Part shown: one piece after another, positions 18,454 to 29,993 of the stretch
How positions within the stretch are numbered: position 1 is the stretch's first letter
Layout: each line of letters starts with the position of its first letter
DNA from: Paracoccaceae bacterium
GTDB lineage: Bacteria > Pseudomonadota > Alphaproteobacteria > Rhizobiales > Stappiaceae
Assembly (NCBI GenBank): GCA_013373445.1
Contig: JABXHV010000067.1
Coordinates: forward strand, 1-48,137
DNA length: 48,137 bases
Direction: 5' to 3'
Translations under genes and position numbers: made by a program
Notes under the pieces: generated by a model
What the model saw: the letters and a program-made list of their open reading frames with translations, nothing else
What the model was told of the DNA's origin: nothing
The model's database searches: none

Positions 18454-19218
18454 TCACTTTCCGTTACGGATTCTGTCCATGGAAGGAACGGGATCGAAAA
18501 GGGAGAACAACAGAAGCCCTGCGAGGAAACCTCCGATGTGTGCTTGCCAGGCAATATTGGTTGCGCCGCCGCCAGACCCCAGACCAAGCCCCGCGAAAAC
18601 GTTCATCACGCCCCAAATGACGATAAACGTTAGGGTTTGTTTCTCCGCCAGAGATTTAAACAGACCTTCGGCAGGCACTCTATAGGCATCCACATTGCGC
18701 AAACGAACCGCCCCGAGCGGGCCACCCAATTGCCAGATAAACCGCACTGCAGCTCCCATATGACCAGAGATTGCGGCAGATGCCCCAATCACTGGAATCG
18801 TCTCTCCGAAGTGAAAAACCAGGTGCATAAGTGCGCCAGCCGCCGCGCATACGGCGGAAAGCAAAAGGAATCGCAGAGTTCCGAACCGCCTTGCAACCAC
18901 ACTTCCGAAGATCGCCATCCAAACCATGTTGAGCATCAAATGCGTCGCGCTGCCATGCAGGAACGCGTAAGTCACGAAGGATGACAGATCTACGAACAGG
19001 CCGCCCGGCCCTGTTCCCAGTCCCAACTCCGACGGATCAAAGCGTACGGGCCAGAAGGCAAAATAAATCAGCAGCTGCAAATCCATATCAGCGCTCAGCA
19101 TGTATGTCCGCACAAGTTGGATCAGAACCATGATCAACGTCAGCACCAACACGACAGTCGGCACATTGAACATAGGCTGCTTTGCCTGCCGGACTTGAGC
19201 CGTAATCTCTTCATTCAT
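18454..19218 (-). CDS. Rhomboid family intramembrane serine protease
   Basis: A 254-aa polytopic inner-membrane protease with about six membrane helices. The catalytic Ser lies in GASAAISGHMGA and the His in AWQAHIGGFLAGLL, and the fold signature HGSATHLMLNMVWMAIFG is clear. Compared with GlpG-like enzymes the GxSG motif reads GASAAISG, the alphaproteobacterial form. Substrates are unknown. The start is ATG 19218. Upstream, at 19435-19665, lies the structured RNA candidate described separately, whose terminator is about 220 nt before this gene. Confidence 0.92.
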   Translation of the reverse strand: MNEEITAQVRQAKQPMFNVPTVVLVLTLIMVLIQLVRTYMLSADMDLQLLIYFAFWPVRFDPSELGLGTGPGGLFVDLSSFVTYAFLHGSATHLMLNMVWMAIFGSVVARRFGTLRFLLLSAVCAAAGALMHLVFHFGETIPVIGASAAISGHMGAAVRFIWQLGGPLGAVRLRNVDAYRVPAEGLFKSLAEKQTLTFIVIWGVMNVFAGLGLGSGGGATNIAWQAHIGGFLAGLLLFSLFDPVPSMDRIRNGK

Positions 19219-19434
19219 TTCAAATCATCCTATCAGGCAGCAAGCTTCATCATACCACTCCGTGCTGTCATCTATCTGGCAATGCCAAAGCCACAAAACA
19301 AGGCTTCATACGCTGCGAGACACTTTCAGCATCGGCTGTGTCATTCCGGCACGATCCTTTGATGAGAATCCCATTTCAAAATGACTGCGCCGCCTTTTGA
19401 GCGCGCGTCAATCAATGCCAAGAAGACCAAAAAA

Positions 19435-19482
19435 CAAAAAAATGCACCTGCCTGGACGTTTTGAAGTCCAGACAGGTGCATT
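19435..19482 (-). terminator. Strong orphan rho-independent terminator
   Basis: A 17-bp stem with one mismatch (19441-19457 with 19466-19482, 8-nt loop) is followed on the minus strand by a T5-G-T6 tail. This is the strongest terminator in the window and has no upstream protein gene. Confidence 0.88.
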
Positions 19483-19665
19483 GGTCGCGCCCCCACGCTT
19501 TCCCACATTCAGAACCTGAAAGTTCCGTCAGCTAGACCATCCACCGGACGACGGAAATCGTTTGCAACATTCCGCAATTCTGCGTTTTGAACGCTTCTGT
19601 ACCCCGCTGCGAAACGCCAAATGGTGGCTTCAGTTGGCCACCTCCCCCCTGATCTTTCAAGCGCT
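19435..19665 (-). ncRNA. Candidate structured small RNA (unknown family)
   Basis: On the minus strand four short perfect stems precede a strong terminator: GGTGGC/GCCACC (19623-19642), GCGTT/AACGC (19582-19594), TTCCGTC/GACGGAA (19523-19556) and TTCAG/CTGAA (19508-19520). No gene on this strand explains the terminator, since rhomboid starts 220 nt beyond it and the next gene upstream is on the other strand. I checked it against tmRNA (no GGTTCRA T-arm or resume-codon context), SRP RNA (no GGAAGGAAG core) and RNase P and recognise none. The 5' end and promoter are uncertain. Confidence 0.5.
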
Positions 19666-19844
19666 AGACAAACTTAACCTTAACCGGGTGTAAACCGGCA
19701 CCTCCTTTGTCCCACCGGCTGAAACTGGCACGGAGCCTGCAATTTGAAGGGCAGAACAGAGCAACACACAGGGATCTGTCCCAAATCAGGACAGAGCTTT
19801 CCAGACCAGGTCACCTGGCGGGACATGAAAAGAAGGCGTTTCAA

Positions 19845-20510
19845 ATGAAACACGGTGTCACCCAAACGCTTTATAACTACTGGGACGAACTACGGAACGG
19901 GCGTCCTGCGCCCAATCGCAGCGAAATCGACCCAGGAAGCATTCGCGGACTTTTAGGCGACACATTCATCTTGGAAGTCTCCAATCCCAATGCGGTACGT
20001 TATAGGCTCGCCGGAACGCGTCTCTGCTCGGCCCATTGCCGTGAACTGAAGGGCCGCAACTTCCTGCGCGGATGGAACGACAAGGATCGTGAAGCATTGG
20101 TCAGCCTCGTCGCTGCGATCACGGAAGACGCTGCAGCTGCCGTTGTCGGCATTTCAGGTCACACTGAACGGGGCCAAACACTTCCCATGGAAATGCTGTT
20201 GTTGCCGCTGAACGTTCCAGGCGAAGGTCGCGTCCGGGTTTTGGGATGCAGCACACCAATGGAGCGCCCCTACTGGCTTGGTCTTCATCCGATCCTGAAG
20301 CAATCCATCACCAGCTTGCGGCTTGTATGGCCCGATGAACGTCCGTTCTTCTTGAACAATCAGGATACAGACAACCTCAGCGTCAACCGGGTTTTGCCCC
20401 GCTTTACGGCCGAAGGGATCCCCTTGTCCGCAACGCCGGTGAGCCAGATCCCTCAGGGAGCGGAAAAACGCGTAGGTCACCTGACCGTTTATCAAGGTGG
20501 CAAAGCCTGA
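19845..20510 (+). CDS. PAS_5 domain protein (DUF1388-type)
   Basis: A 221-aa cytosolic protein of the PAS_5 family common in alphaproteobacteria. It begins MKHGVTQTLYNYWDELRNGR with the typical WDxLRxGRxxPxRxxIDP motif (here NRSEIDPGSI) and continues with FILEVSNPNAVRYRLAGTRLC, a PAS-like ligand fold. No effector domain is attached. Members are often found near PilZ genes, as here, where the tandem PilZ gene follows by 100 bp. The function is unknown; a sensory role is inferred from the fold. Confidence 0.85.
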   Translation: MKHGVTQTLYNYWDELRNGRPAPNRSEIDPGSIRGLLGDTFILEVSNPNAVRYRLAGTRLCSAHCRELKGRNFLRGWNDKDREALVSLVAAITEDAAAAVVGISGHTERGQTLPMEMLLLPLNVPGEGRVRVLGCSTPMERPYWLGLHPILKQSITSLRLVWPDERPFFLNNQDTDNLSVNRVLPRFTAEGIPLSATPVSQIPQGAEKRVGHLTVYQGGKA

Positions 20511-21772: not shown

Positions 21773-22396
21773 ATGAAACTACTGAAGACTATTCAATACT
21801 GGCCTGCAATCGCTGGCATCATGATGTTCACATACGCTGGAACGGCAAATGCAGATCCAGTGCGTTACATGGCAATGAGCAAGTCGGTAAAAGCTCCGAT
21901 TGGTCACGTCCAGTTCTGTAGGGAGAACAGGAAGGCCTGCACGTTGCAAACCGCTAAACCAGTCGTCGTGAAGCTTACAGAAGCACGGTGGAATGAGTTG
22001 GTTGCGCTCAATGATGCGATCAACAAGCGCATACGACCCGTAACGGACATGGAACTCTATGGTCGCGAAGAATACTGGACATATCCAGTCGGCAATGCCG
22101 GGGATTGTGAAGAATATGTGCTCGAAAAGCAGCGTGCTCTCCTGAAGGCCGGTTGGCCCAGCAGCACCCTTTTGATCACCGTGGTGAAAGACACCCAAAA
22201 CGCCGGTCATGCAGTTCTCACTGTACGGACTGATCAGGGAGATATCGTTCTCGACAATCAAATAGCCGCCGTTCTGCCGTGGTATTCGACGCCCTACCGC
22301 TTTGTGAAGCGTCAGTCACCGAAGAACTACGCAAAATGGACTGGCATTTCCGACACACGTGTCGCAGCAGTGGGCGCTGTCAGGGCGCTTAACTAG
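21773..22396 (+). CDS. Transglutaminase-like cysteine peptidase (BTLCP, LapG-like)
   Basis: A 207-aa protein with a signal peptide (hydrophobic IAGIMMFTYAG, cleavage near residue 27, ANA-D) and a BTLCP domain. The triad is predicted as Cys112 (NAGDCEEYVLEK), His146 (QNAGHAVLTVRT) and Asp161 (DIVLDNQ). The best known member, LapG, is a periplasmic protease that releases surface adhesins when c-di-GMP falls. No LapD or adhesin is adjacent. GGGGAGGG before ATG 21773 marks the start. The AT-rich upstream DNA is unlike its neighbours. Confidence 0.88.
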   Translation: MKLLKTIQYWPAIAGIMMFTYAGTANADPVRYMAMSKSVKAPIGHVQFCRENRKACTLQTAKPVVVKLTEARWNELVALNDAINKRIRPVTDMELYGREEYWTYPVGNAGDCEEYVLEKQRALLKAGWPSSTLLITVVKDTQNAGHAVLTVRTDQGDIVLDNQIAAVLPWYSTPYRFVKRQSPKNYAKWTGISDTRVAAVGAVRALN

Positions 22397-22487
22397 CGCA
22401 ACAGTTGGGATATGAGGTTTGCCGAAAGGCAAAATGGACGATCCGGTCGCGTCCCCACCCTCCCCATCCCTACCACGACCGGATCCA

Positions 22488-22525
22488 GGGAGTCGGCTGC
22501 CCCCGCAAGCCGGCTCCCGCTTTCT
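22488..22525 (+). terminator. Terminator of the BTLCP gene
   Basis: GGGAGTCGGCT (22488-22498) pairs, with one wobble, with AGCCGGCTCCC (22508-22518) and is followed by GCTTTCTTT. It lies about 90 bp after the stop. Confidence 0.7.
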
Positions 22526-22616
22526 TTAGCTGGATCAAGTTGATCTGGATGTGGAACGGCGGAAACTTGCCTGAAGAGACTTCTCTGAAGAAGACACGCA
22601 GGTCTGAAGCGTCCCG

Positions 22617-23144
22617 TTAAAGGGCTCTAAGGCTGTCCAGGTAGCGCTTCCAGTTGGTCACGTAGCGATCTGCAGAGCTCGCATTTGCGGCTTCAGCATC
22701 AGCGTCCAATTTACGCGTAACACGACCAGGCACCCCGACGACCAGAGAATTATCCGGGATGTCCTTGCCTTCGGGAACCAAGGCCATTGCCCCAATCACA
22801 CAGTTCTTGCCGATTTTTGCACCGTTGAGAACAGTCGCTCCCATGCCGATCAATGTGTTGTCGCCAATGGTACAGCCGTGAAGGATGGCCCGGTGGCCAA
22901 TCGTACAGCCTTCCCCAATGGTTAGGGGATACCCCATATCTGTGTGAAGAACAGCGCCATCCTGAATGTTGGACCGTGCACCAACGTGGATCAGCTCATT
23001 GTCACCACGCAGGACGGCCCCAAACCAGACGCTCGCATCCACGTCTAATCTGACACGCCCAATCAAAAAAGCGCCCTCAGCAACCCAACAGGTTCGCTCT
23101 GCGCTACAATCGGGGCGAATGCCATCCAGTTCATAAAGTGTCAT
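22617..23144 (-). CDS. Gamma-class carbonic anhydrase family protein (YrdA/PaaY type)
   Basis: A 175-aa left-handed beta-helix protein with hexapeptide repeats such as [21 protein letters not shown]. Zinc ligand candidates are the three His in VLHTD, IGHRA and ILHGC, the pattern of gamma-carbonic anhydrases. Related proteins act as carbonic anhydrases or acyl thioesterase-like factors, and the substrate is not settled. The family segments [18 protein letters not shown] and [12 protein letters not shown] are present. ATG 23144. It lies downstream of a small membrane protein gene on the same strand. Confidence 0.92.
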
Positions 23145-29953: not shown

Positions 29954-29993
29954 AAAAAAAGCCCGCGCAAACAATATTTTGCGCGGGCTTTTT
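29954..29993. terminator. Bidirectional terminator between gpt and sfsA
   Basis: GCCCGCGCAAA (29961-29971) pairs perfectly with TTTGCGCGGGC (29978-29988), with an A-run before and T5 after it. It serves the gpt unit (+) and the trkH/sfsA unit (-). Confidence 0.92.

Follow-up and report, generated by a model that had tools for sequence, protein, structure and literature searches.

We propose that the gene of a small RNA, sRNA1, lies with a predicted promoter and a terminator of its own on the minus strand at 19625-19430 of the window, by which we mean the whole 48,137-nucleotide stretch of DNA analysed here (contig C30 of a 3.64-Mb draft genome). sRNA1 is complementary to a second and more widespread RNA, sRNA2, and therefore probably captures and silences it, as an anti-sRNA or sponge. 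The gene position, the terminators, the promoter-like block, the complementarity and the co-variation are results of sequence comparison, with Roseibium (Labrenzia included) as the genus-level comparison set; from these we infer transcription and the sponge effect. Taken as a whole, we regard this as the best explanation of the locus and a probable one.

A predicted small RNA gene between rhomboid and PAS_5

The features of the sRNA1 locus are as follows.

18454-19218, minus strand: rhomboid gene (Pfam PF01694), flanking sRNA1
19430-19625, minus strand: sRNA1, predicted transcript of about 190-200 nt (from promoter, terminator and model R1; the 5' end is deduced from the promoter)
19441-19482, minus strand: intrinsic terminator stem-loop of sRNA1, with U tail at 19440-19429 (terminator scan and covariation)
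19483-19496, minus strand: sRNA1 core, GUGGGGGCGCGACC, antisense to sRNA2 at 22445-22458 by 13 Watson-Crick pairs and one G-U pair
19487-19498, minus strand: hairpin GCGU-GGGG-GCGC, presenting a GGGG loop (sRNA1 alignment and model R1)
19632-19660, minus strand: predicted sRNA1 promoter, with -35 TTGAAA at 19660-19655, a 17-nt spacer and -10 CCAACT at 19637-19632 (conservation; the -10 is CAnnTT in many relatives)
19674-19683, minus strand: TTAAGGTTAA box upstream of sRNA1 (TTAA-N7-TAAA, CtrA-like, in many relatives), kept in 46 dereplicated promoter segments
19845-20510, plus strand: PAS_5 gene (Pfam PF07310), flanking sRNA1

A preliminary description of this DNA singled out the terminator as the strongest of the window, standing behind a gene-free region. 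A scan of both strands (at least five T in seven, -12 kcal/mol or better) bears this out: the minus-strand stem ranks first of 44 hairpins at -30.8 kcal/mol, with the next at -24.4. The stem, AATGCACCTGTCTGGACTTCAAAACGTCCAGGCAGGTGCATT, has 17 pairs and is followed by TTTTTGTTTTTT. As also described, the minus strand upstream of it holds no recognisable protein-coding gene, the PAS_5 gene being on the plus strand, and the rhomboid gene starts 222 nt beyond the stem, close to the 220 nt first given. The same description saw no match to tmRNA, SRP RNA or RNase P by key motifs and proposed an Rfam scan as a check. Four tRNAs proved to be the only gathering matches in the window, the best intergenic match, at 23.1 bits, fell short of its gathering score of 80, and neither tmRNA, RNase P, SRP RNA, 6S nor any other Rfam family gave a gathering match at sRNA1 or sRNA2 in the window or in two sets of 20 loci.

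Other parts of that description fared less well. The four short stems that it listed are present in the sequence, with no counterpart seen in aligned relatives; they are not the conserved part, and the hairpin that is conserved, GCGU-GGGG-GCGC, is absent from the list. The 12-codon frame, MLQTISVVRWMV, exists, and nothing similar occurs among the frames, up to five each, printed for 27 relatives. Neither the listed stems nor the micro-frame look like functional parts. A conserved micro-protein was considered and dropped, as the frames vary in length and sequence and the MGTRP at the core is the motif read as codons. The minus strand of the 231-nt stretch folds better than shuffles (z -3.2, 1/200); the plus strand does so too (z -4.5, 0/200), so the fold alone says little.

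Conservation of sRNA1

The neighbourhood is stable. The rhomboid gene was matched in 45 of 45 genomes, and the two flanking genes diverge across 488-722 bp in all 29 relatives fetched first. We read 44 intergenic regions (the window, these 29 and 14 further relatives), leaving out G023, where rhomboid is a fragment at a contig end. On the rhomboid strand the aligned regions have three conserved blocks in common: a promoter-like block, a core with the consensus GUGGGGACGCGACC and, directly after the core, the terminator. The core is present in 42 of the 44 regions, 39 by pattern and three more (L039, L041 and L044) by the covariance model R1; neither pattern nor model found it in L013 and L014. 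In Roseibium suaedae and R. litorale (L128 and L133) sRNA2 is kept, but neither an sRNA1 core nor a strong terminator could be found; these are putative natural losses of the putative sponge.

The promoter-like block reads TTAAGGTTAA-N7-TAAA-GCTTG, with CAnnTT 17 nt past the -35. Box and TTG occur together in 57 of 79 named or window regions. With near-duplicates removed, the -10 letters are C in 27, A in 32, T in 28 and T in 31 of 46 segments, the TTG being fixed by anchoring. We take the CtrA consensus to be TTAA-N7-TTAA; the TTAA-N7-TAAA common upstream of sRNA1 is then a candidate CtrA box, and sRNA1 may be under CtrA control.

Model R1 was built from 28 sequences with the window left out, and the held-out window matches it at 19437-19508 with 28.4 bits. 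In the covariation check, of the kind advised in the preliminary description, 13 of the 17 terminator pairs in the R1 alignment are changed on both sides with pairing kept. None of 500 shuffles reached the covariation score, and when the terminator is slid the paired share drops from 89% to 37-48%. The core hairpin behaves differently. In alignment A3 only one pair has a two-sided change; the 3' strand is nearly invariant and the 5' strand drifts, which suggests that the 3' strand has a partner elsewhere. sRNA1 has an intrinsic terminator, conservation as RNA and no conserved coding frame, which are marks of an intrinsically terminated, trans-encoded small RNA. Direct DNA search found no match to it in 60 relatives; the upstream part changes too fast. 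R1 matches 55 of 397 genomes of the order (E up to 0.01), and its matches are weak, and were not used, outside Roseibium and Pannonibacter.

The PAS_5/rhomboid pair is also kept in other families, with rhomboid in place in 78 of 80 named loci. Counting hairpins of -18 kcal/mol or better that carry a U tail, 250-470 nt from the PAS_5 start, we find one on the rhomboid strand in 59 of these 78 (30 of 32 in Roseibium, 29 of 46 elsewhere), against 10 of 78 on the opposite strand. In the other families many regions have a terminator of varied sequence at the expected place and others have none.

The intergenic region holds further elements on the PAS_5 side. An element resembling what we take to be the sigma-54 -24/-12 consensus precedes PAS_5 in the window, at 19725-19741 of the plus strand, and in loci L003-L031; it reads CTGGCAC-N5-CTGC in the window and TTGGCAC-N5-TGC in many relatives. 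Between it and the PAS_5 start lies a TGTCC..GGGACA-like palindrome. We considered pairing of sRNA1 with the TGTCCC palindrome in the 5' region of PAS_5 and rejected it on inspecting the alignment, because L008 and L009 change the palindrome with no matching change. Elsewhere in the window, a hairpin at 29958-29991 has T runs on both strands and is a possible two-way terminator.

A second, more widespread RNA

The second locus comprises the following features.

21773-22396, plus strand: C93 transglutaminase-like peptidase gene (Pfam PF06035), 5' neighbour of sRNA2
22438-22526, plus strand: sRNA2, a C-rich-loop hairpin and terminator (model R2, 94.8 bits in the window)
22440-22485, plus strand: sRNA2 hairpin, GAUCCGGUCG-CGUCCCCACCCUCCCCAUCCCUACCA-CGACCGGAUC, with the second of these as loop (4 of 9 modelled pairs changed on both sides; the loop is strongly conserved)
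22445-22458, plus strand: sRNA2 segment GGUCGCGUCCCCAC, complementary to the sRNA1 core (sequence comparison)
22488-22526, plus strand: sRNA2 terminator, GGGAGUCGGCU..AGCCGGCUCCC, and U-rich tail (7 of 10 modelled pairs changed on both sides)
22617-23144, minus strand: hexapeptide-repeat, gamma-carbonic-anhydrase-like gene (Pfam Hexapep), convergent neighbour of sRNA2

A search of nine genomes for the complement of the sRNA1 core gave 76 matches against 79 for the reversed control, so most of them are chance. One match, at window position 22448, recurs 2.9-4.1 kb from sRNA1 on the same strand in all nine genomes. We rejected chance for this copy (at 22445), which has one mismatch in its own genome but the same place in nine of nine.

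The element around it is strongly conserved in 14 of 14 Roseibium genomes (13 by pattern, the window included, and G032 by BLAST). The likely transcript is the plus strand, with a hairpin carrying the loop CGUCCCCACCCUCCCCAUCCCUACCA, a terminator hairpin and a U-rich tail; over the whole RNA 11 of 19 pairs have two-sided changes, and the loop holds CCUCC in 20 of the 21 rows of alignment A5. Model R2, built from A5 with the window outside and close relatives inside, finds sRNA2 in 13 of 13 fetched Roseibium loci. Among 33 named Roseibium loci, 25 have sRNA2, three have the sRNA1 complement alone and five have nothing; these loci extend some 2.5 kb beyond PAS_5, and in the three and the five sRNA2 may therefore lie outside. 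Across the order R2 matches 129 of 397 genomes and 55 of 141 genera, and across a sample of the class three of 385 genomes, all of the same order. No Rfam family matched sRNA2 in the window or in the further loci searched.

In 22 loci of this and other families, those neighbours of sRNA2 that were found are the C93 gene to one side and the hexapeptide gene to the other. The window's hexapeptide gene scores 151.7 bits with the NCBIfam gamma carbonic anhydrase model, below the cut-off of 250. In four regions with no C93 match (L288, L289, L290 and L293) sRNA2 follows PAS_5 at some distance. Just before sRNA2, at 22400-22437 of the plus strand, is a small hairpin of changing sequence and kept stem, by eye TTTGCC..GGCAAA in several relatives. 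sRNA2 may be cut from the C93 mRNA.

Complementarity and matched changes

The consensus core of sRNA1, GUGGGGACGCGACC, is the exact antisense of GGUCGCGUCCCCAC in sRNA2. The loci are about 3 kb apart in the window, and sRNA2 lies outside the stretch singled out in the preliminary description. The window core has one A to G change, giving a G-U pair and a duplex of -30.2 instead of -30.8 kcal/mol. Several variants keep the pairing by G-U in this way (A24 to G, C22 to U); L008, L039 and L041 do not. The longest contiguous pairing is 14-17 in 8 of 12 Roseibium compared, the window included, and 12, 10, 9 and 8 in the other four (L134, L133, L128 and L127).

Across lineages the two RNAs change together. 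The matched pairs are listed below, with families given by our f numbers.

GGUCGCGUCCCC with GGGGACGCGACC
f24: GGUCGAGUCCCC with GGGGACUCGACC
f22 and f42: GGUCACGUCCCC with GGGGAUGUGACC and GGGGGCGUGACC
f13 (G048): GGUCACGUCCCC with GGGGGCGUGAC
f20: GGUCACGUC with GACGUGACC
f16 (G051): GUCACGUCCC with GGGACGUGAC
S. albiluteola: CCGCGUCCCC with GGGGACGCGG
f43: GGUCGCAUCCCA with UGGGAUGCGACC
f36: GUAUCCCCACCCC with GGGGUGGGGAUAC
f36, g40 (G260, G424): ACAUCCCCACCCCUCCCCGU with GCGGGGAGGGGUGGGGAUGU, about 20 nt

In G260 the match is kept with the two loci nearly 12 kb apart. G051 has two tandem sRNA2 copies (L261, 1764-1844 and 1856-1937) with the seed letters GGUCGCG and GGUCACG; it is the second copy to which its sRNA1 forms Watson-Crick pairs.

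A sponge should show long complementarity to a second small RNA, maintained by compensating changes; we find this here, though not in all lineages. We saw no convincing sRNA1 site in Pannonibacter indicus, most Stappia examined, Cohaesibacter, families f14, f21, f23, f29, f30, f37, f38, f39 and f44, and part of f28. In G141 and L287 (f13) the sRNA1 core does not follow the sRNA2 change, and in G079 (f36) the 5.3 kb fetched yielded neither such a site nor a PAS_5 gene. For several lineages the best 12-nt site does not stand out from those of shuffled intergenic DNA. Whole-transcript duplex energies were often no better than those of dinucleotide shuffles; they do not discriminate, because both RNAs are G/C-rich, and we therefore used ungapped partner tests instead.

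These tests compare the best ungapped pairing of an intergenic region with its own sRNA2 and with the sRNA2 of other lineages. Over 71 pairs, failures included, we observed 719 against 633 (sd 11), and none of 20,000 shuffles was as good. The set leaves out loci with no sRNA2 match, such as those of Pseudovibrio, and near-identical relatives that have both RNAs (for example L106, L107, L110, L111, L114 and L116, and further L117, L119, L122, L130-L132, L137, L141, L152, L160 and L165). With one random member from each of 28 groups (family f1 entering as three genera, and five groups being named lineages with no established family number), the median p over 300 draws was 0.002, which is the floor of 500 shuffles, and the 90th percentile 0.006. 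Treating f1 as a single group (26 groups) gave 0.004 and 0.016.

Two earlier subsets, of 24 and of 33 lineages, agree. A 12-nt seed test on 24 lineages, which took in 24 of 44 rows, was equalled by 2 of 20,000 shuffles; with one lineage per family the counts were 118 of 20,000 (n=8, families with a site) and 130 of 20,000 (n=13), and a local score on 33 chosen lineages gave 1 of 20,000. Taking the first-listed lineage of each family gave 0 of 20,000, a choice made in the knowledge that G048 and L285 had sites and since replaced by the random representatives over the 71 pairs. Ten lineages of families new to the pairing test gave 760 of 20,000 on their own, resting on two of the ten; they came from a step in which 20 regions were fetched, 14 with both flanking genes and six with no usable interval. 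The lineages are related by descent, so the shuffles overstate independence and none of these figures is a strict probability.

Alternative explanations

The pairing is symmetrical, which raises the possibility that both RNAs are real but their roles are reversed or shared, with sRNA2 capturing an mRNA-regulating sRNA1 or the pair being degraded together. A further G-rich stretch in sRNA1, GGGUGGGAGGA in one Roseibium clade, could have partners of its own. That said, sRNA2 is the more conserved and widespread of the two, and two Roseibium species keep it with no sRNA1 core, as a regulator of several targets would be expected to behave; its loop nearly always carries CCUCC; we think reversed roles unlikely. 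There is little chance that sRNA1 acts independently on C-rich mRNA sites and matches sRNA2 by common descent, as an old inverted copy. The core does also fold as a hairpin, and L044 keeps this hairpin with a two-sided change, but matched changes in separate families are not what shared ancestry predicts. In A3, moreover, the hairpin strand that pairs with sRNA2 is nearly invariant while the other drifts.

The remaining two readings dispense with a separate small RNA. The preliminary description left open a trans-acting RNA or a long leader of the rhomboid/CBS unit, in which the terminator would be an attenuator or insulator. It does stand on the same strand before rhomboid, at 222 nt from its start. 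We nevertheless find a leader very improbable: by eye, much of the genus has a -35/-10-like pair in the stretch from the terminator to rhomboid, the core beside the terminator co-varies with a distant RNA, and no Rfam leader class matches. The covarying terminator, the conserved promoter-like block and the near-invariant core antisense to sRNA2 make the trans-acting RNA the better of the two options. The least probable reading is a conserved DNA element, or chance, with no transcription at all. The sRNA2 site has a G-rich strand that, by what we take to be the motif, might form a G-quadruplex; the U tails, the strand bias of the terminators and the covarying stems fit RNA instead.

Relation to known RNAs

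Plasmid-type antisense pairs such as RNAI/RNAII and CopA/CopT pair by loop-loop contact followed by helix spreading and are encoded on opposite strands of one site, whereas sRNA1 and sRNA2 occupy two separate loci. C-rich, anti-Shine-Dalgarno-like loops are a feature of the alpha-r14 or cuckoo RNAs of alphaproteobacteria, which we take to be the family RF02344 with the motif CCUCCUCCC. The RF02344 covariance model gives sRNA2 12.0 bits, against its gathering score of 58.8. BjrC68 (RF02353) scores 12.1 bits in the window against a gathering score of 39 and has no match in 10 further loci with E up to 0.5.

Two systems of Caulobacter crescentus are analogues, with no kinship implied. CrfA is an RNA sponge of SisA-D, as the available part of its description has it (PMC12559287); there too, in an alphaproteobacterium, one small RNA uses a G-rich stem-loop to pair with a pyrimidine-rich stretch in a second, and the genes are separately transcribed, as is predicted here. 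The same part assigns SisA-D to the alpha-R8 family, with the core UUUCCUCCCU and usually beside an FGase gene (PMC12559287). This core is absent from the sRNA2 sequences compared, which have the loop CCCCACCCUCCCC and sit between the C93 and hexapeptide genes, not beside an FGase gene; sRNA2 is thus no member of alpha-R8 (SisA/MmgR) on these marks. CcnA, likened to sRNA2 by description, has a CCCC loop that binds GGGG in mRNA 5' UTRs, and its transcription is presumed CtrA-dependent; it differs in lying at the origin of replication, and no antisense partner is described in the available part of the source (PMC8959179). GspR and EcpR1 lie in other neighbourhoods, as the available parts of their descriptions place them (PMC5928217, PMC4414408).

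The alpha-R8 core TTTCCTCCCT has seven exact sites (L297-L303) elsewhere in the own genome, against one for the reversed control, and none on the window's contig; judged by this motif, they are possible alpha-R8 RNAs. In one Roseibium clade (L016-L021, L024 and L026) the 5' half of sRNA1 contains a GGGUGGGAGGA-like stretch, complementary over up to about 8 nt to the published core UUUCCUCCCU, by which sRNA1 might also touch an alpha-R8 RNA.

Titles and abstract openings in a literature search confined to the main texts of open papers point to nothing at the sRNA1/sRNA2 locus, and within the same scope six sequence strings do not occur in the searched paper texts. The text of PMC3927594 mentions neither rhomboid nor Stappia.

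A model and its implications

We envisage that the working part of sRNA1 is the GGGG-loop hairpin followed by ACGCGACC, directly before the terminator. The GGGG loop would touch the UCCCC part of the sRNA2 loop in a kissing contact, from which pairing would spread into both stems to 12-20 base pairs, opening the sRNA2 stem and hiding its loop. Otherwise that loop, usually with CCUCC, would bind Shine-Dalgarno or other G-rich mRNA sites, the candidate targets being mRNAs with GGGGAGGG-like leaders. Hfq may serve as the chaperone.

In many lineages with sRNA2 no sRNA1 site can be recognised, so the putative sponge has been repeatedly lost or replaced, or else has had more than one origin. On balance we favour the view that a C-rich regulator and a dedicated, linked antisense sponge have been kept through much of the Hyphomicrobiales, their 12-20 nt site re-tuned in step, so that each lineage has a private code.

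The matched changes between families, in two RNAs with no Rfam match and a conserved neighbourhood, are evidence for RNA-RNA pairing from genomes alone, and the lineage variants provide a ready series of natural compensatory mutants. Other sponges are, to our knowledge, mostly known from single species. sRNA2 is an unstudied regulator in about a third of the order genomes sampled. If the sponge role is true, the alphaproteobacteria would have in sRNA1 a second sponge system next to that of CrfA (PMC12559287), one whose partner belongs to a different family.
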